DNA of 64,000 nt from Spirochaetales bacterium Spiro_02 (GCA_001604275.1 LVBD01000032.1:1-64000); one strand, 5' to 3'; positions 6,216 through 64,000 are shown, counted from the stretch's first letter. Numbers and translations are program-made. Notes: generated by a model not told the origin, from the letters alone.

Positions 6216-7128
6216 TGTCACGCTCGGCGTGCATGGCAAGGATTTCGACTATATCTTTTCCTATCAGACCGGTGGCCCTGAGTCTTTTGTCGCAGGCGGG
6301 CTGGAATGGCTCTATCGCACTCCAAAGCCGACATTCTGGCGTGCGACCACTTGCAATGACCGGGGAAGTCATTTTCCCCACAAAGCAAGCATGTGGATGG
6401 GTGCCGACATGTTCATAGAGACGACCGGGGTGGAAGTGCTGGTCGACGACGCTCCGCTGACGGGGTTCCTCGCCCCTGACAATTCCCGCTTGATTGGTTC
6501 GGGATATGAACATCCTGCTTCGGTGGAGGTCCGGTATACCTATGCGACCACGACCGTTCCGAGCGCCACGGTGACCGTCGGCTACAGGGTTGTCAGAACG
6601 GGGGATGTGCTGGTCTTGGTCCGCTACGAGGGGGTTCCCGGGCTTCCTGAACTTCCTGCTTTCGGCATGCGGTTCGTGATGCCTTCGCTTGCGACCGGGT
6701 ACGATTATCGAGGGTTGGAAGGGGAGACGTATCCTGACCGGATGGCGGGAGCTCGCCGAGGGACGTTCTCCGTTTCCGGAGTGCCTCTGACACCATACCT
6801 GGTTCCCCAGGAATGCGGCATGCATATGGATACGGACTTTGTGATCGTATCTAGGACGGGAACTGGCGACCGGACCGCTCGGCTGACGTTCCGGCGCCAT
6901 GACCGGCGGTTCGCATTCAGCCTCCTGCCGTATACAGCGCTGGAATTGGAGAATGCGACGCATCAGGAGGAACTTCCTCCTGCCAGAAGGACCGTGCTGT
7001 GCGTCATGGGCGCTGTGCGGGGAGTAGGAGGGATCGACAGTTGGGGTAGCGATGTGGAGCCGGCTTATCGTATCCCTTCGGATCAAGACATCGTTTATTC
7101 GTTCGTGATCTCGCCGAGTCAACGGTGA
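6196..7128 (+). CDS. lacM: Beta-galactosidase small subunit (LacM type)
   Basis: 310 aa, the C-terminal beta-sandwich domain of LacZ (Bgal_small_N). It begins MDVVYGDVTLGVHGKDF and contains GLEWLYRTPKPTFWRATTCNDRG, the segment that in LacZ contributes to the active site of the neighbouring chain. GGAGGTG lies 10 bases before the ATG, inside lacL. The two genes overlap by 20 bases, similar to the short overlap in Lactobacillus lacLM. Both subunits should be needed for activity. There is no sign of a single frameshift in an ancestral lacZ, because lacM has its own ribosome site and start. Confidence 0.9.
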   Translation: MDVVYGDVTLGVHGKDFDYIFSYQTGGPESFVAGGLEWLYRTPKPTFWRATTCNDRGSHFPHKASMWMGADMFIETTGVEVLVDDAPLTGFLAPDNSRLIGSGYEHPASVEVRYTYATTTVPSATVTVGYRVVRTGDVLVLVRYEGVPGLPELPAFGMRFVMPSLATGYDYRGLEGETYPDRMAGARRGTFSVSGVPLTPYLVPQECGMHMDTDFVIVSRTGTGDRTARLTFRRHDRRFAFSLLPYTALELENATHQEELPPARRTVLCVMGAVRGVGGIDSWGSDVEPAYRIPSDQDIVYSFVISPSQR

Positions 7129-54787: not shown

Positions 54788-54817
54788 TTGACCTTTTGCC
54801 ATGCGCTCTGTTACTAT
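54788..54817 (+). promoter_or_regulatory. Promoter of the trp operon
   Basis: TTGACC (54788-54793), 18-base spacer, TACTAT (54812-54817). The leader before trpE is only about 20 bases, too short for a leader-peptide attenuator or T-box. Confidence 0.6.
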
Positions 54818-54842
54818 ACATAAGAACATCAAGGAGGGCTGC

Positions 54843-56351
54843 ATGTATCCATCCCTTGCAGAGGCGAAGCATATCGCCGGCACAGATGAATTTCGGCGGA
54901 TTCCTGTCAAGCGGGAATTTTTCGCCGATCGTTTTACGACGATCGAGGTCCTGCGGAAGCTCAAGAGCGTCAGTTCCCATGTGTTTCTGTTTGAAAGCGT
55001 CGAACAGAACAGGAGTTGGTCAAGATGGTCATTCCTTGGATTTTCTCCATCGCTGGAACTCAGTTGCTCGGATGGGACGTTGAGGATTCGTAGACGGGAG
55101 AGCGAAGACAGTGTGGTTGAAGAAACGAAGCAGGTCGATAGTCCGAATGAGGAAATCAGGCGAATCTTGGCGGAAAACCGCGCCCCACGACTCAAAGGGT
55201 TCCCCCCGTTTTGTGGAGGATTCGTCGGATATTTTGCCTTTGAATATCTTAAGTATCCGGAACCGAGGCTTTCCTGTCTGACAGAGCTCGATGCTGCCGA
55301 TGATTTCAAGGATGTCGATCTGATGTTGTTCGACACAGTGGTGGCGTTCGATTCCTATCGTCAGAAAATCGTACTCGTCGGGAGCGTCGAGACTGATTCC
55401 ATGGAACAGTCGTATCGTGATGCGGAAAAACGGTTCGACTCGATCGAGCGGCTGCTGTCGCAAAAAGCCGGGTTGGAATTCCCCCGATTGCAGCTCGAGG
55501 AAGATTTGCAACCGATGTTCCCATGTGATCGCTTCCATGCCATGGTGGGCAAGGCGAAGGAATACATCCGCGAGGGGGATATCTTCCAAGTAGTCCTATC
55601 GAATCCGATGAAAGCGAAGGCTCATGGGAGCCTGCTGGATGTCTATCGTGTGCTGAGAACGACCAACCCGTCGCCATACATGTTCTATTTCTCCAGCGAT
55701 GATGTGGAGATCGCCGGAGCATCCCCCGAAACATTGCTCAAGCTGGAGGACGGCAAGCTCCATACCTATCCGCTTGCGGGAACGAGGAGGCGTGGGACGG
55801 ATGAAGCGGAGGATCGTGCGCTGGAGGAGGAACTGTTGCGCGACGAGAAGGAACTCGCGGAACACAATATGCTTGTCGATCTGGGACGGAATGATCTTGG
55901 AAGGATTTCCAAGATCGGAACCGTCCAGGTGGAGAAGTACCTCTGCGTCGAACGATTCTCCCACGTGATGCATATCGCATCGACGGTTTCATCGGTGATC
56001 AGGGACGACAAGGATTCTCTGGATGCCGTCGAATCGATCCTTCCCGCGGGGACGCTCTCCGGAGCTCCGAAAATTCGAGCGTGCGAAATCATTTCGGAAC
56101 TGGAAGGAACGCGACGAGGAATCTATGGAGGCGCGATCGGTTATCTCGATGTTTGCGGGAATGCGGATACATGTATCTCGATCCGGCTGGCATATCTGAA
56201 GAACGGTACGCTCTGCGTCCAGTCTGGCGCAGGGATCGTCGCGGATAGCGTCGAAGAGAACGAGTACCAGGAATGCCTGAATAAGGCGAAAGCGGTTGTG
56301 GATGCCATATCGCTGGCACGGGAGGGATTCGATGATCTTGTTGATCGATAA
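54843..56351 (+). CDS. trpE: Anthranilate synthase component I
   Basis: 502 aa. It makes anthranilate from chorismate and ammonia. The tryptophan feedback site (LFESVEQNRSWSRWSFLGFSP, LLES-like) is at residues ~45-65; catalytic-domain motifs are REGDIFQVVLSNP, ASPETLLKLEDGKLHTYPLAGTRRRG, NMLVDLGRNDLGR and LPAGTLSGAPKIRACEII. AAGGAGG lies 5 bases before the ATG at 54843. First gene of trpEGDCF; overlaps trpG by 20 bases. Confidence 0.96.
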   Translation: MYPSLAEAKHIAGTDEFRRIPVKREFFADRFTTIEVLRKLKSVSSHVFLFESVEQNRSWSRWSFLGFSPSLELSCSDGTLRIRRRESEDSVVEETKQVDSPNEEIRRILAENRAPRLKGFPPFCGGFVGYFAFEYLKYPEPRLSCLTELDAADDFKDVDLMLFDTVVAFDSYRQKIVLVGSVETDSMEQSYRDAEKRFDSIERLLSQKAGLEFPRLQLEEDLQPMFPCDRFHAMVGKAKEYIREGDIFQVVLSNPMKAKAHGSLLDVYRVLRTTNPSPYMFYFSSDDVEIAGASPETLLKLEDGKLHTYPLAGTRRRGTDEAEDRALEEELLRDEKELAEHNMLVDLGRNDLGRISKIGTVQVEKYLCVERFSHVMHIASTVSSVIRDDKDSLDAVESILPAGTLSGAPKIRACEIISELEGTRRGIYGGAIGYLDVCGNADTCISIRLAYLKNGTLCVQSGAGIVADSVEENEYQECLNKAKAVVDAISLAREGFDDLVDR

Positions 56352-56916
56352 TTATGATAGCTTTTCCTATAATCTCTACCAGTTGCTCGGGCAGTTCGGA
56401 GTTCCTGTCGCAGTAGTTCGGAATGACGAAATATCCATCGAAACTATCGAAGAGTTGGCCCCTGCAGCGATTTTCCTTTCTCCAGGGCCCGGTCGGCCTG
56501 AGGATGCCGGTATCTGCATCCCGGTCATTACGGCCTTCGCATCAAGATGTCCGATATTCGGCGTCTGCCTGGGACATCAGGCGATAGCTGTCGCTTTTGG
56601 AGGCGTAGTGACGTATGCTCGCACGCTGATGCATGGAAAGACCAGCGAGATTCTCTGTGATGATGATTCCCGATTGTTCCATGGACTCGGCGAAACGTTG
56701 CGTGCCGCCAGGTACCACTCGTTGGTCGCCTCGGAAGACAGGCTGATCGGTACTGGACTGGTCGTGACGGCGAGGACCCGTGACGGCGAGGTCATGGCAT
56801 TGGAGCATGAGCGGTATCCGGTGTGCGGAGTGCAGTTCCATCCGGAATCCATCATGACTGATGTAGGATATGCGATCGTGAGGAACTATCTATCATCCAT
56901 CGGTATGGAGGTATGA
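56332..56916 (+). CDS. trpG: Anthranilate synthase component II (glutamine amidotransferase)
   Basis: 194 aa class I amidotransferase. It supplies ammonia to TrpE. The start [17 protein letters not shown] and [12 protein letters not shown] are typical; the catalytic Cys is in [10 protein letters not shown], the His-Glu pair in [16 protein letters not shown] lies 5 bases before the ATG, inside trpE. Not fused to trpD. Confidence 0.96.
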
Positions 56917-56918
56917 CA

Positions 56919-57929
56919 ATGATACGGGATGCTATCAAAAAGCTTTCGAAACGGGAAAACCTGACATTCGATGAAGCTCAGGCGGTCATGGATGAGATCA
57001 TGGACGGTAAGACGAGCCAGATTCAGACGGCAGGATACCTGACGGCCCTCGCCATGAAAGGGGAGACAGTCGATGAAATTACCGCTTCCGCAGCCGCGAT
57101 GCGCAACCATTGCGTCAAGCTGCTGCATGACCTACCTGTTCTGGAAATCGTCGGAACGGGAGGGGATGGGGCCAATTCGTTCAATATCTCCACGACGGCG
57201 GCGCTGGTGATCGCTTCGGCTGGCGTCAAGGTCGCCAAGCATGGGAATCGGGCGGCGTCTTCGCGGAGCGGAAGCGCCGATGTCCTGGAGGCGTTGGGCG
57301 TCGATATCTCCGTATCCCCGGAACGAAGCCTGCAGATGTTGCAACGTATCGGAATCTGCTTCCTGTTCGCACAGAACTATCATATCGCGATGAAATATGT
57401 AGCTCCTGTGCGTAGGGAACTGGGAATCAGGACCGTATTCAACATCCTTGGACCTCTGTCGAATCCTGCGGGAGCTCGTATGGAGTTGATGGGCGTCTAT
57501 GACGAAACGCTTGTGGAGCCTCTTGCGCAGGTCATGAGCGCGCTGGGGGTCGAGCGTGGGATGGTCGTGTTTGGAAAAGATCGGCTGGATGAGATATCCA
57601 TGTCGGATGCGACGCATATCTGCGAAATCAAGGACGGTTGGTTCCAGACCTATGATATGACGCCGGAGCTGTTCGGCTATGTCCGATGCGACAAGTCGGT
57701 GCTTGTCGGCGGAACGCCGCAGGAAAACGCACGGATCACGCTGGATATTCTCGATGGCACGGATCAGGGTCCGCGACGAGGCGCAGTCTGTCTCAATGCG
57801 GGAGCGGCGCTGTATATCGCACGCAAGGCGGAGAGCGTCGAAGCCGGAGTCCGTCTGGCGGAACGCCAGATCGATTCCGGACTGGCGCTTGCGAAATTGA
57901 ACGAATTCATCGAGGAGAGCAAGCGATGA
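56919..57929 (+). CDS. trpD: Anthranilate phosphoribosyltransferase
   Basis: 336 aa. It joins anthranilate to PRPP. PRPP loop [36 protein letters not shown], and the second metal/PRPP site GKDRLDEIS are present. Start 56919 has GGAGGT at 7 bases; the ATG at 56913 overlaps the trpG stop but is only 1 base from the ribosome site. Confidence 0.95.
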
Positions 57930-58750
57930 ACATCCTTGCGCAAATTGCGGACAGGACCCGCGACAGGATCGCAAAGCGACGGGCGGCGGTACCGCTTGAA
58001 CGTATCAGGGAATTGGCGGAGGGTGTGCCTGTATCCGATGCCTACCCCTTCGAGGCGGCGATGCGAAAGGACGGGATGTCCGTGATCGCCGAACTCAAGA
58101 AGGCCTCCCCGTCGAAAGGAGTCATATGCTCCGATTTCCCGTATCTTTCGATCGCTCGTGAATATATGCAGGCGTCTTGCGACGCTGTTTCGTGTCTGAC
58201 GGAGCCATTCTATTTCCTTGGCGACGACAGATATCTCTTGCAAGTCGCAGCTGCAGTGGACGTTCCTGTCCTTCGAAAGGATTTTTTCATCGACGAATAC
58301 ATGATCTATGAAGCGAAGTTGTTCGGGGCAAGTGCGATCTTGCTCATTGTATCGCTGTTGGACGACAAGACGCTGACTACATATATGGAAGTCGCCGACT
58401 CTCTCGGCCTGTCTGCGCTTGTCGAATGTCGCGACTCAACGGAAGTGGACCGCGCTGTTTCCGCTGGAGCAAGGATCATCGGCGTCAACAACAGGAATCT
58501 CGGGACGTTCGAGGTCGACATGGAACGGACAGCTCGGCTCCGGGACTTGGTTCCCGGTGATACGATCCTGGTTTCAGAAAGCGGGATATCCTCAGGAAAG
58601 GACTGTGCGAGGCTACGCTCCATCGGAGTTGACGCCGTGCTTGTCGGAGAGGCCCTTGTCAGATCCTCCGACAAAGCGGCGCTGATCAGGGAACTGAAAA
58701 GAGGAGGAAGTCTTGACGGGCATCAAGATTTGCGGCTTGCGACGACATGA
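57926..58750 (+). CDS. trpC: Indole-3-glycerol phosphate synthase
   Basis: 274 aa TIM barrel, not fused to trpF. It ring-closes CdRP to indole-3-glycerol phosphate. Catalytic-site motifs: [15 protein letters not shown] (Glu and Lys), [47 protein letters not shown] and VSESGISSG. The start overlaps the trpD stop (ATGA). The 3' end overlaps trpF by 38 bases, adding ~12 C-terminal residues beyond the usual end. Confidence 0.95.
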
Positions 58751-59336
58751 AGACATCCTGTTTGTCAATGAGTTGGGACCGGAATATGTCGGTTTCGTCA
58801 TCGACGTGCCCTCGAGCCCCAGGAGCATCGATGCAAGGCATCTGACGGGGCTTGTCCAAGAGTTGGACGATGGCATCGTGAAAGTGGGGGTGTTCGTGGA
58901 CGAATCGCTCGATTTCGTCTCCGGCCTGCTCGCCGACGGTCTGATCGACATGGCGCAGCTCCATGGCGACGAACCCGATGCATATGTCTCGGAATTGTGT
59001 TCTGTCGGTAGACCGGTCATCAAGGCGTTCCGATTCTTCGATTTGGATCGAGCGAGCTCCTGTCCAGCGGATTATATTCTGATAGATGGTGCTGTAGCCG
59101 GTTCCGGACACACGTTTCCCTGGGATGCCGTCTCGACTGTGCGAAGGCCGTTTTTCCTAGCCGGTGGTCTTGATAGCGCGAACGTAGGGGAGGCTGTCGC
59201 AAGACTCCGGCCATTCGCCGTAGATGTCAGTTCTTCCGTGGAATCCGGCGGAGTCAAGGATTTTTCCAAGATGGCCGAATTCATCGCCGCTGTCAGAAAT
59301 GCGGAGAAAGTGGGTCCTCGGCACAGCATCGGATGA
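58713..59336 (+). CDS. trpF: Phosphoribosylanthranilate isomerase
   Basis: 207 aa TIM barrel converting PRA to Cd[13 protein letters not shown] carries the catalytic Cys; QLHGDEPDAYV, YILIDGAVAGSGHTFPW (catalytic Asp) and FFLAGGLDSANVGEAV follow; the C-terminus has VDVSSSVESGGVKDFSKM. The start is TTG at 58713 with GAGGAGG 6 bases before it. trpB and trpA do not follow. Confidence 0.95.
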   Translation: MTGIKICGLRRHEDILFVNELGPEYVGFVIDVPSSPRSIDARHLTGLVQELDDGIVKVGVFVDESLDFVSGLLADGLIDMAQLHGDEPDAYVSELCSVGRPVIKAFRFFDLDRASSCPADYILIDGAVAGSGHTFPWDAVSTVRRPFFLAGGLDSANVGEAVARLRPFAVDVSSSVESGGVKDFSKMAEFIAAVRNAEKVGPRHSIG

Positions 59337-59421: not shown

Positions 59422-59982
59422 ATGTCTCAAATGACGAAACACGCGCTTGCGGCTTCGTTGAAGAAGTTGCTTGCGGAAAAAACCCTGGAGAAGATCACAG
59501 TTAAGGAACTCGTCGAAGAATGCGGTGTCAATAGGCAGACGTTCTACTATCACTTCAAGGACGTGTATGATTTGCTTGACTGGGTTTTCACGACCGAAGG
59601 CAAGGCCGTGATGCCTGAAGTCCGCCCGGATGACTGGGAGCAGAACGCTCGGAACTTGTTTTCATATATGGAAGCGAACCAGCAGTTCATCATCAATGCG
59701 TACCATAGCATCGCCAGGGAGCATCTCGAACGGTATGTCTACCGGGAAATGTATCGTTTGCTATATGCCAGAGTGGTCGCGTCTTCCGTCGATCTGGATG
59801 TATCCGAAGCGGACAAGCAGTTCGTGGCGAATTTTTACAAGTTCGCTTTCACCGGTCTCGTACTGGAATGGATACGCTGCGGCATGCAGGAAAATCCGTC
59901 GAAGATCGTCGATCGGCTGTCGATTCTGATGAAAGGCGAATTCCGCGATACTTTGGAAAAATTCGACAAAAGCGGTCGCTGA
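59422..59982 (+). CDS. TetR-family regulator
   Basis: 186 aa. Helix-turn-helix ITVKELVEECGVNRQTFYYHFKDVYDLLDWVFTTEG, the same DhaS-like TetR subclass as the gene at 34777; helical C-terminal domain. GAGGAG lies 10 bases before the ATG. It stands alone between the trp operon and the chaperone gene and may control itself or the fimbrial genes downstream (inference). Confidence 0.88.
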   Translation: MSQMTKHALAASLKKLLAEKTLEKITVKELVEECGVNRQTFYYHFKDVYDLLDWVFTTEGKAVMPEVRPDDWEQNARNLFSYMEANQQFIINAYHSIAREHLERYVYREMYRLLYARVVASSVDLDVSEADKQFVANFYKFAFTGLVLEWIRCGMQENPSKIVDRLSILMKGEFRDTLEKFDKSGR

Positions 59983-60438: not shown

Positions 60439-61188
60439 ATGAATGCGACAAAACGGTTAGCTGCTTTACTAATGGTTGGTATCATCTGCGTTTGCAATCT
60501 CGCTGCGTTTCAGTTCTCTCCGCTGGAGCAGACATTTGCCCCCAGTGGTGCGGAAAGTACGAAGACGTATACGATCGTCAATGATTCCGATGATAGCATC
60601 GCGATCGAGATCAGCGTCGAGACCCGCGATCAGGATGAGTTCGGAAATGAACTCAACTCCGACGCATCGGCCTATTTCTCGATCGTTCCTGCGAAAGTGA
60701 TCGTCAAGCCACAGAGCACGCAGATCGTCCGGGTCCAGTACCGCGGACCGAGAACCGTGACCAATGAGCTTTCTTTCCGTCTGCGTGCCACACAGATTGA
60801 ATATTCCCAGGGCAAGAACGCGCAGAACAAGGGGATGTTCAACTTCATGTATGTATATTCGACGAGCCTATATGTGAATCCTTCCAAGCCGATCGCGAGA
60901 GCGGGCGTCCATCGTGTCGCTCCTGTGGTGGCTGAAGACGGGACTCGTTACATGGCGGTCACGATCTCCAATACCGGAAACGTCCACCAGTTGTTGCTGG
61001 ATGCGTCTCTCGAAGTTTCCGACAGTGCCGGAAATGCCGTTACGTTGAAAGGAAATGAAGCGCTTCCCGGTATCGACGGGATGAATATTCTGGCGAAGCG
61101 TGTCGTGACAAAGAATATCCCTTGGCCGGACGCTCTTGCCGTTGGAGAAGGCGTCGGTTACAAGGCTTCGATGACCTATAGCAAATAG
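60439..61188 (+). CDS. PapD-like periplasmic pilus chaperone
   Basis: 249 aa. Signal peptide (LAALLMVGIICVCNLAA) then FQFSPLEQTFAPSGAESTKTYTIVNDSDDSIAIEISVETR, an immunoglobulin-fold strand set typical of pilus chaperones, and VKPQSTQIVRVQYRGP, the basic strand next to the donor strand. The second domain (YMAVTISNTGNVHQLLLDASLEVSD) matches the PapD C-terminal lobe. In known systems it folds pilin subunits and delivers them to the usher encoded next. Start 60439 is chosen from the signal peptide; codons to 60352 look non-coding. Confidence 0.85.
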   Translation: MNATKRLAALLMVGIICVCNLAAFQFSPLEQTFAPSGAESTKTYTIVNDSDDSIAIEISVETRDQDEFGNELNSDASAYFSIVPAKVIVKPQSTQIVRVQYRGPRTVTNELSFRLRATQIEYSQGKNAQNKGMFNFMYVYSTSLYVNPSKPIARAGVHRVAPVVAEDGTRYMAVTISNTGNVHQLLLDASLEVSDSAGNAVTLKGNEALPGIDGMNILAKRVVTKNIPWPDALAVGEGVGYKASMTYSK

Positions 61189-61313
61189 TCGTTCAGCTCC
61201 CTTAGTAGATGCTTCGCGAACTGCGGGCTGTCGGCAGTGTTTTGGAATCTGTCGGCATCCCGCATGTGATATTGACATCCTAAGGTTTTTACGTTGATGA
61301 AAAGGGAGTCGTG

Positions 61314-64000
61314 ATGCAGAACAGACGTGGGCATACCATAGTACTGTTGTTCCTCTTATTTTTAGTCGCTGTTTTTCTTGTTGCGTTCATGAAGACGTGC
61401 GCGGGCCGTTCTGCATCGGTGGTCCACGAAGCTGTCGACGAGAAACCTACTCCTATAGCAGAAACAATTCCTCTCACCTCAGGAGGGGAACCTGTCGCCG
61501 AGCCGCTTCCCGATATCGCATCCTCTGTATCGCCTGCCGCCGCTTCGGAACTTCCCCCGGAGGAAACCCCAGCCGTCTTGCATCCACCCGTCAGGCCTTT
61601 CGCCCCGACATATTCCGGCCCGCCTGCGATCCTGCCCCTGGCCGCTTTGGAACCTTTGGCCGCCGCGTCTTCCCCCGTGGATCCGGAATCTACCGTTTCT
61701 CCCGAATTCCCGCCTCAGGAGCAGGTTTCCGTTCCGAAAGTCCCCGACATGCCGTTCATTTTCGAGCCGAGCGTCTTCACGCTGGACGACTGGTATACGT
61801 TCTTCGTCGATTCAGAACCCGCTCCTTCGTCGAGCGACGATCCGTTCGCTGATTTCTTCGTTTCCGGCGAAGACGCCATGGTGTACGATGACGGATGGTA
61901 CTACATGGGACTGTATATCAACGACGAGTATTCGGGTGACATCGAAGTTCAGCTGGAAGCGGATCAGCAAGCCCTCAACAGTTCCGAGTTGAGCCTGATG
62001 CTGGACACCCTCATTACCGACGATGCATACCGGATGATTTTCAGTGCCGGGGAACAGTACATTCCTCTCGATACGCTGAGGAATCTCGGGATCGGCGTCG
62101 ATTATGATCCGGCGATGTTCACCGTGGGGCTTACTTTCGGCATCGATATGATGCCTGTCAAGAACATTTCTGTCAGCACGAGCTACATCTCCCGCCGCGA
62201 CAGATATTCGCTCAGCGGCTCCCAGGTGCTCGCTCCCGCGAAGTTTTCGTGGATATCGCATCTTTCCCTGTATTCAGCGCTCGATTTCACAGAGGGAGAG
62301 CTGTCGACTTCCCAGTTGTTCTCGCTATCGGTGGCGAACAACCTTTCGATCTTCGGGGTAGGGCTGGATTTCTCCTATCAGCTTTCGCAGAACGATCCAT
62401 ATTTCACGTTCGGTTCCTGGCGGGGATTCTATGATTTCGCTGACAAGAACATCAGAATGTCCTTCGGAAACATCGGAAGCGGAATCGGTAGCTACAGCGG
62501 GACGTATGTCGGGCTCGCGTTCGAGAAAAATTATTCATACGGCACCGGATCGGCGAAAAGCAACCAGTATGAGCGGACCATCACGCTTCCCGTGCGGTCG
62601 AGCGTGGAAGTGATCATGAACGAGCGGTCGGTGTTCAAGCGGGAACTGGCTGCGGGAACGTACCGCCTGAAGGATTTCCTCTTCAGTCAAGGCGCCAATT
62701 CGATCGATGTCATAATTACCCCTGTCAATCCGATGGACGGAGAATCCTATACGATCCATGTTGACATGGGCTACGATTCCCGCCTGCTTGCACGCAATGA
62801 ATCGTTGTGGGGGATGAGTTTCTCCCTGCCAAGGGAAGAAGTGACCGCCGGCAGCGGTATCGGCATCTCCTTGCCATGGATCGGCGGCAAGGAACTTGAC
62901 TATCGACCGAAGCAGTTCTCAGCCCAGTATTGGCAGCAGACGGGAATCACCGATATCTTCACGCTCTCCACGACGTTCTCGGTCACTCCGGGGCTCTTCC
63001 TCTCCAATTTTTCCGGCGTGCTCGCGACGACATTCGGCACCGTCCAGGGCGCTACCGCGTTGAGTTTGAGTCCTTTGGGTGTCGGTTACAGCGGAAAGCT
63101 CAGCCATAGATACTCGGCGTCCAATTCGTGGTTCAATTCGATCGATGCAAGTATCGGATATACCAACGGTACGTATTCGGTCACACCGAGCGAAACGCAG
63201 ATCGCATCGGTCGGACTGCTGACAGGGGCGTTGTCGTTTTCCGGTCGCATCGGCAGTTTCCTGCGGATTTCCGTCGGTAGCAACGTGTCGCTGGCTGTCG
63301 ATACATTCTCTCCCGATTGGTCGATCGTCACATCCCTTGGGATGAGTCCTGCGCAAGGTATGTCTCTGTCGGCGTCCATTGTCGCAACTGCAACCGGCGA
63401 GAAACCGGATAAGCCAGTCGTAAAGGGAAGCTTGAGTTTCAGTTATTCGTTCGGTTCGGCGGCGGCCCTGTCTGTTTCAACGGATTTCAGAACCGGGAAT
63501 TCGATCAATTTCTCCTGGCGTCCGGGCGTCGACCGCCGTGACACCTTGCAGTTGAACCTCAGCGGAATCGATTTCTCCAATCCGATCAGGCATACGCTTT
63601 CGCTGGGATGGTCACATATCGGCGATCTGTATTCGATGACGTTGCGTCAGCAGTTCTCGGATTCCTACCAGAGGGCGGTAACGTACCTTTCCTTGAACAC
63701 GAGCTTCATTTTTGCCGACGGAGTGTTCGGGATGTCCCGCAATATTTCCGACAACTTCCTCCTGATCAAGCCGACCGGCTCGCTCAAAGGAGGCTCCATA
63801 TCAGTAGGAAGATCGATGGATTCCTCCCCATCGGTACTTCCCACGGTCTTCGGCGCCGCTGTATACAACAACATTTCCAGCTATACCAGGAACAACGTGA
63901 TCGTATTCGGTTCGAGCGGATCCTTGTTCGGAAGCGGAGATACGTTCGTCTACGAGATGACGCCGCGTTCCCGGCAGGGCTTCGTCGCGAAGATCAGCAT
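61314..64000 (+). CDS. Outer-membrane usher-like protein with proline-rich N-terminal extension (partial)
   Basis: 895 residues to the window end, no stop. AGGGAG precedes ATG 61314. Residues ~9-28 are a hydrophobic signal or anchor; ~45-160 are rich in Pro, Ala and Glu; then an usher N-terminal domain from ~186 (YDDGWYYMGLYINDEYSGDI; YIPLDTLRNLGIGVDYDPAM), beta-barrel strands with alternating aromatic residues, and an usher plug domain at ~420-480 (TLPVRSSVEVIMNERSVFKR; GTYRLKDFLFSQGANSIDVI), then more barrel. Ushers pass chaperone-subunit complexes through the outer membrane. The extension before the N-terminal domain is not usual for FimD/PapC proteins. Pilin genes may lie beyond the window. 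Confidence 0.82.
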   Translation, partial: MQNRRGHTIVLLFLLFLVAVFLVAFMKTCAGRSASVVHEAVDEKPTPIAETIPLTSGGEPVAEPLPDIASSVSPAAASELPPEETPAVLHPPVRPFAPTYSGPPAILPLAALEPLAAASSPVDPESTVSPEFPPQEQVSVPKVPDMPFIFEPSVFTLDDWYTFFVDSEPAPSSSDDPFADFFVSGEDAMVYDDGWYYMGLYINDEYSGDIEVQLEADQQALNSSELSLMLDTLITDDAYRMIFSAGEQYIPLDTLRNLGIGVDYDPAMFTVGLTFGIDMMPVKNISVSTSYISRRDRYSLSGSQVLAPAKFSWISHLSLYSALDFTEGELSTSQLFSLSVANNLSIFGVGLDFSYQLSQNDPYFTFGSWRGFYDFADKNIRMSFGNIGSGIGSYSGTYVGLAFEKNYSYGTGSAKSNQYERTITLPVRSSVEVIMNERSVFKRELAAGTYRLKDFLFSQGANSIDVIITPVNPMDGESYTIHVDMGYDSRLLARNESLWGMSFSLPREEVTAGSGIGISLPWIGGKELDYRPKQFSAQYWQQTGITDIFTLSTTFSVTPGLFLSNFSGVLATTFGTVQGATALSLSPLGVGYSGKLSHRYSASNSWFNSIDASIGYTNGTYSVTPSETQIASVGLLTGALSFSGRIGSFLRISVGSNVSLAVDTFSPDWSIVTSLGMSPAQGMSLSASIVATATGEKPDKPVVKGSLSFSYSFGSAAALSVSTDFRTGNSINFSWRPGVDRRDTLQLNLSGIDFSNPIRHTLSLGWSHIGDLYSMTLRQQFSDSYQRAVTYLSLNTSFIFADGVFGMSRNISDNFLLIKPTGSLKGGSISVGRSMDSSPSVLPTVFGAAVYNNISSYTRNNVIVFGSSGSLFGSGDTFVYEMTPRSRQGFVAKIS

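Follow-up and report, generated by a model that had tools for sequence, protein, structure and literature searches.

Probable assembly core of a non-classical chaperone–usher pilus in the spirochaete family Sphaerochaetaceae, with a predicted usher tether and dispersed candidate subunits

Chaperone–usher pili are built from subunits that are exported by Sec, complemented by a donor strand of the chaperone and joined by strand exchange at the usher. The pilin genes usually lie in the same operon as the chaperone and usher genes, although this arrangement is not a mechanistic requirement. The archaic (sigma) pili, for example Csu of Acinetobacter, resemble the Sphaerochaetaceae system described here in their PapD-fold chaperone, usher, SCPU-type subunits and two-domain tip adhesin. 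The alternative (alpha) pili, ECP and CFA/I, resemble it in the chaperone, whose profile leads to EcpB alone (Pro60, Arg89), and in the adhesin fold, which leads to CfaE. In contrast to both groups, the usher of the Sphaerochaetaceae has a predicted helix–linker tether, in most genera the subunit genes lie apart from the core, and the host is a spirochaete; the usher studied here also differs from the ECP and CFA/I systems in having no Pfam-detectable usher similarity. The CupB3 P-usher of Pseudomonas reportedly carries an extra N-terminal region with a POTRA-type domain. It is likewise an usher with an added N-terminal region, whereas the Sphaerochaetaceae extension models as a helix and a disordered linker, with no POTRA-like domain. 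In TonB, a signal anchor in the inner membrane precedes a Pro/Glu-rich linker that spans the periplasm. The usher is predicted to share the anchor and the Pro/Glu-rich linker, but its chain ends in its own outer-membrane barrel, and ExbD is mostly absent from the genomes that carry it. Archaic chaperone–usher systems have been listed from Proteobacteria and from phyla including Cyanobacteria (PMC4654587). Our literature search, for which most subscription papers were outside reach, returned no report of chaperone–usher genes in Sphaerochaeta and none of an inner-membrane-anchored usher.

The DNA analysed here (the window, 64,000 nucleotides) is bases 1–64000 of a 78,440-base contig, C32, in a 2.6 Mb assembly. 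An earlier note on this stretch, made from the sequence alone, had found its remainder spirochaete-like, and the host indeed belongs to a spirochaete family, the Sphaerochaetaceae, whose named members include Sphaerochaeta halotolerans. When the sequence was read past 64000, the gene order was chaperone, usher and then a V-ATPase operon (Table 1). We estimate a probability of roughly three in four that this locus encodes the core for assembling a non-classical chaperone–usher pilus in the Sphaerochaetaceae, with a tethered usher and dispersed subunits. The TetR-type regulator gene has orthologues that are likewise upstream of the chaperone in loci of the genus Sphaerochaeta (L015–L019). ORFs that look by eye like trpE, trpG, trpD, trpC and trpF, genes of tryptophan biosynthesis, occupy 54801–59336, just upstream of the regulator.

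Table 1. Features of the chaperone–usher locus and candidate subunit genes of the same genome. Positions without a prefix are those of the window; residues are those of the usher.
Feature	Position	Strand	Basis
TetR-type regulator gene	59422–59982	+	ORF; directly 5′ of chaperone
PapD-fold, predicted non-classical periplasmic pilus chaperone, ordinary signal peptide	60439–61188	+	249 aa ORF; PF00345
Usher gene, 1076 aa	61314–64000 in window, coding on to 64544 (L014:1315–4545)	+	ORF; AlphaFold; Foldseek
Usher N-terminal hydrophobic helix, residues 4–30, predicted inner-membrane anchor	61323–61403	+	Model; no clear signal-peptidase site
Disordered Pro/Glu/Ala-rich linker, residues 31–190	61404–61883	+	pLDDT; composition; ends in D(F/W)ADF...GE
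Usher N-terminal (chaperone-binding) domain, residues 192–290	61887–62183	+	Model strands from residue 194; Foldseek alignment
Usher β-barrel, residues ~311–835	62244–63818	+	DSSP of model; PapC/FimD barrel match
Usher plug, residues ~421–487, inserted after strand 6	62574–62774	+	DSSP of model
Usher C-terminal domains, to ~64253, then conserved tail to 64544	63876–64000 in window	+	Model and sequence
Candidate subunit, two-domain, 358 aa	C45:15474–16547		Profile match, fold; strong
Candidate subunit, 210 aa	C37:80233–80694		Profile match; strong
Two tandem candidate subunits on C31	L322:5507–6160 and 6529–7071		Weaker, E 0.008
Candidate subunit on C24	L106:109–1281	−	Weaker, E 5e-4

The chaperone, whose PapD-like character had been recognised in the earlier note, matches PF00345 with an E-value of 1.7e-8 and 34.9 bits (cut-off 23), as befits the PapD-fold chaperone of a chaperone–usher pathway. 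When a profile of 31 relatives was compared with the PDB, EcpB was the sole match at E≤0.01 (E 9.4e-4). Pro84 and Arg114 are invariant across the 31 chaperones, and they align with Pro60 and Arg89 of EcpB. These two residues (the invariant proline and the super-conserved arginine of strand F1, in EcpB numbering) mark the archaic and alternative chaperones (PMC4654587). On the strength of this correspondence, the chaperone classes as non-classical, of the archaic/alternative type.

The usher had to be identified in a different manner. The window usher has no match in Pfam at E≤1, and a profile of all the ushers found no usher among PDB sequences, only chance matches, so we turned to a comparison of folds. 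A model was predicted with AlphaFold from 44 aligned relatives (mean pLDDT 78). In a Foldseek comparison with the PDB, the top 18 matches of this model were all FimD or PapC chains; the best of these was FimD (3rfz) at E 1.6e-32, and the target TM-score was approximately 0.6–0.7 for the best FimD chains. The first non-usher match followed at E 1.7e-6. The N-terminal domain, the barrel with its plug and the C-terminal domains are all present in the model, and six barrel strands, the plug insertion, the remaining strands and the C-terminal domains succeed one another in the known usher order. The predicted fold is thus decisive in naming the protein an usher. The barrel and plug claimed by the earlier note are upheld by this match. 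The search with usher HMMs that it proposed gave a divided answer: the window usher was not matched, but 8 of the 44 relatives match PF00577 on their own sequence. The frameshift that it named as refuting is absent; the frame runs open to its stop codon, and the C-terminal domains that it sought past 64000 begin at 63876 and continue to ~64253.

The earlier note had also held spirochaetes to be a group not known for chaperone–usher pili. The genes are in fact common in the class. Our first single-protein scan of genomes found nothing, and relatives were found by searching with a chaperone alignment. The class-wide search of 347 genomes then gave ushers in 54 Sphaerochaetaceae and in about 46 further genomes, which belong to about 18 other families of Spirochaetia; some of these genomes have two chaperone–usher copies.

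The most distinctive part of the window usher is its N-terminus. About 190 residues precede the N-domain, and they comprise a helix of about 27 residues (4–30) and a mostly disordered stretch (31–190), with pLDDT below 50 over residues 31–142 and most of 143–190. A hydrophobic segment followed by a Pro/Ala/Glu-rich linker, long enough to connect the usher with the inner membrane, had been described from the sequence. Its length and build fit this description; the extension is real and somewhat longer in the model than the ~150 residues first given. At least one N-terminal hydrophobic segment was found in each of the 40 full-length Sphaerochaetaceae ushers examined, and the linkers of these proteins have a median length of 161 residues (range 67–339) and a median proline content of 13%. 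The linker ends in the short conserved motif D(F/W)ADF...GE, in which Phe181 is present in 40/40. We take this motif to resemble the chaperone-binding N-terminal tail of FimD, and it therefore seems that a normal usher N-terminus was kept and a tether was added in front of it. We also read two dozen usher loci of other spirochaete families, a few of which have an unclear start codon. In most, the N-domain is closely preceded by an ordinary signal peptide, in many cases with xAQ at its end, and in the class-wide search the ushers of these families align with those of the Sphaerochaetaceae from the N-domain region onward only. As judged from these alignments, the helix and linker are a trait of the Sphaerochaetaceae.

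Is the helix retained? To our knowledge, outer-membrane barrel proteins have cleaved signal peptides, and the helix could be an unusually long, cleaved signal peptide, leaving the Pro-rich stretch as a flexible tail of an ordinary outer-membrane usher. By a crude pattern, cleavage-like triplets occur in 8 of 34 single-helix ushers, but there is no consistent site after the helix, and the clear xAQ-type site near the N-domain that most ushers of related families have is missing in the Sphaerochaetaceae. The hydrophobic core of the helix equals that of membrane helices in length, and it exceeds the cores seen in chaperones from the same genomes (p 2e-7) and in the ushers of other families (p 5e-9). 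Furthermore, in one clade of Sphaerochaetaceae ushers the single helix is replaced by several (2 to 7 by a simple hydropathy rule). The multi-helix ushers are monophyletic (19/19 tips), with weak node support. The number of helices is odd in 15 of these 19, and an odd number would place the N-terminus in the cytoplasm and the linker in the periplasm. A start with several predicted helices cannot be an ordinary cleaved signal peptide. From the multi-helix N-termini, the want of a consistent cleavage site and the long hydrophobic core, the N-terminus of Sphaerochaetaceae ushers is most likely a retained inner-membrane anchor, and for single-helix members, the window usher included, we infer the same uncleaved state. 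Cleavage of a long signal peptide is the alternative that survives best, and we regard it as unlikely. We consider it fairly probable that one polypeptide is integral to both membranes through an anchor of 1–7 helices, a TonB-like disordered bridge and an outer-membrane barrel, with the pilus tied to the inner membrane. Roughly half of the ushers have a cysteine where the helix meets the periplasm (near 61398 in the window), through which disulfide-linked dimers might form. A reading of this juxtamembrane cysteine as a lipobox was rejected, since it is usually preceded by T, I, Q, V or Y.

No pilin gene is visible inside the window, as had been stated, and none lies directly downstream of the usher, where the earlier note had proposed to look for pilins; the V-ATPase operon lies there instead. 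The candidate subunits are dispersed, which would explain their absence from this locus. The window genome has five candidate subunit genes on four other contigs (C45, C37, C31 and C24; Table 1). Those on C45 and C37 were matched by a profile for which usher-linked pilins of other families were the main source; generic searches of this genome with PF05229 and PF00345 gave nothing at E≤0.1, and family-specific profiles were needed. The C45 protein was modeled with a pLDDT of 84.8, and all ten of its PDB matches at E<0.001 are chaperone–usher tip adhesins (CfaE, CsuE, FimH and CupB6), with CfaE as the best fold match. These matches are at the level of domains, with whole-chain TM-scores of approximately 0.25–0.33. 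As modeled, the C45 protein folds like the tip adhesins CfaE, CsuE and FimH. CsuE is the first or sole PDB match of two pilin family profiles. The PDB profile matches thus point to two clades, the chaperone being nearest to EcpB (alternative) and the pilins to Csu (archaic).

Across the family, pilin-like genes lie mostly away from the chaperone–usher core, often in tandem; the nearest large cluster is about 37–48 kb from the usher in single-contig genomes of the Sphaerochaeta group. Beyond the family, four loci have SCPU-type pilin genes next to those of the chaperone and usher. Of the 15 chaperone-bearing genera represented in 139 Sphaerochaetaceae genomes, 14 have pilin matches at E≤0.001, as against 0 of the 7 genera without the chaperone (Fisher 4.7e-5, a test that takes genera as independent despite shared ancestry, with chaperone-less genera tending to small genomes). 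In genus g8, an usher is present and no pilin was detected. In good-quality genomes, the corresponding counts are 32/63 and 0/12, and the four pilin-bearing genomes with no chaperone match are all ≤88% complete. Shared ancestry weakens these statistics, but it does not weaken the evidence from the multi-helix clade, the only one in the family with the usual operon arrangement. Here an array of secreted pilin-like genes follows directly after the usher, and it comprises at least eight genes wherever the locus was read to sufficient length. The first ORF after the usher is not a clear pilin by profile; the second gene of the array scores best. These arrays (L311–L321; genus g17, with extra copies in g12) consist of consecutive secreted pilin-like genes of ~180–260 aa and a member of ~420–510 aa, and the pilin-like genes have little sequence similarity among themselves. 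From family resemblance and co-occurrence, the dispersed candidates are probably substrates of the window usher.

Most genera have no subunit gene beside the core, and in a few genomes (e.g. G058 and G037) the usher frame is broken, as it might be if the locus were a remnant devoid of pilins or encoded a secretion pore for non-pilus cargo. We find this improbable, because usher frames are open and conserved across the family, subunit candidates are encoded elsewhere in the genome, one of them with a tip-adhesin fold, pilins and chaperone co-occur across genera, and the multi-helix clade has its pilin-like array. The ushers of G058 (a single-contig genome) and G037 (L112:1954–5273, L123:2087–5210) are split into two overlapping frames, by either disruption or sequencing error.

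V-ATPase genes follow the usher in most Sphaerochaetaceae genera outside the multi-helix clade. The distance from the usher stop to the next gene on the V-ATPase side is <20 bases in several genera and 6–16 bases in some, and this short gap suggests that the chaperone–usher pair is co-transcribed with the V-ATPase operon. The linkage is a strong synteny, and no mechanism behind it was found. Downstream of the window usher, which stops at 64544, the V-ATPase operon follows (L014:4772–13552, and likewise in relatives).

The earlier note had likened the tether to TonB. The likeness holds for the composition of the linker, but not for energising. An energy-coupled device, in which ExbB/ExbD partner the helix and force passes along the linker to gate the usher, would suit the TonB-like anchor and linker, the two ExbD genes of the window genome, the ExbB-ExbD-TonB-like cluster near orphan pilin genes in the genus Sphaerochaeta, and the junction with the V-ATPase operon. 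However, ExbD is detectable in only 8 of the 26 usher-bearing Sphaerochaetaceae genomes searched, the window genome included, and none was detected in the other 18. ExbBD is accompanied by a separate TonB-like gene, the number of helices varies from 1 to 7, and chaperone–usher assembly needs no energy input. A Pfam scan of the usher gave no match to a TonB C-terminal domain, and the usher fold extends over the C-terminal part of the model. TonB-like energisation is therefore very unlikely on the gene content. In the genus Sphaerochaeta, the receptor-ExbB-ExbD-TonB-like cluster is flanked by 1–3 orphan single-domain pilin genes (L323:5692–10330, L324:4595–12700, L330:6902–11534), which are absent at the cluster in the window genome (L325). 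A contaminating or recently acquired proteobacterial locus can be dismissed: the assembly of the window genome has 74 contigs and an estimated contamination of 3.7%, but the same locus with its V-ATPase synteny is present in single-contig, complete genomes of the Sphaerochaeta group, which refutes this origin, there is no close sequence relative in Pfam or the PDB, and the GC content is unremarkable.

In the pilus that we propose, one chaperone and one usher at a conserved locus would serve subunits from several distant loci, both single-domain pilins and two-domain tip adhesins. As in known chaperone–usher pili, the subunits would be kept in the periplasm by the chaperone and delivered to the pore of the usher through donor-strand exchange. 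The N-terminus of the usher would stay in the inner membrane as a transmembrane helix, or as several in one clade, and the disordered linker (usually 110–250 residues) would span the periplasm to the N-domain and the outer-membrane barrel. The role of the tether would most likely be mechanical or positional, anchoring the fibre to the inner membrane and keeping the usher near the sites of subunit export.

Chaperone–usher genes are thus widespread in the Spirochaetia. In the Sphaerochaetaceae, an apparent inner-membrane anchor has been added to the usher, whose gene is mostly no longer linked to those of the pilins. If the anchor is retained, a single protein would be embedded in both membranes, which is rare. 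Such a protein would raise the questions of how the barrel, its N-terminus being fixed, reaches the machinery that inserts it into the outer membrane, how the linker fits the width of the periplasm and whether the tether can replace anchoring to the cell wall. Sphaerochaeta are non-motile, round (non-spiral) spirochaetes, and the locus provides them with a candidate adhesion organelle.
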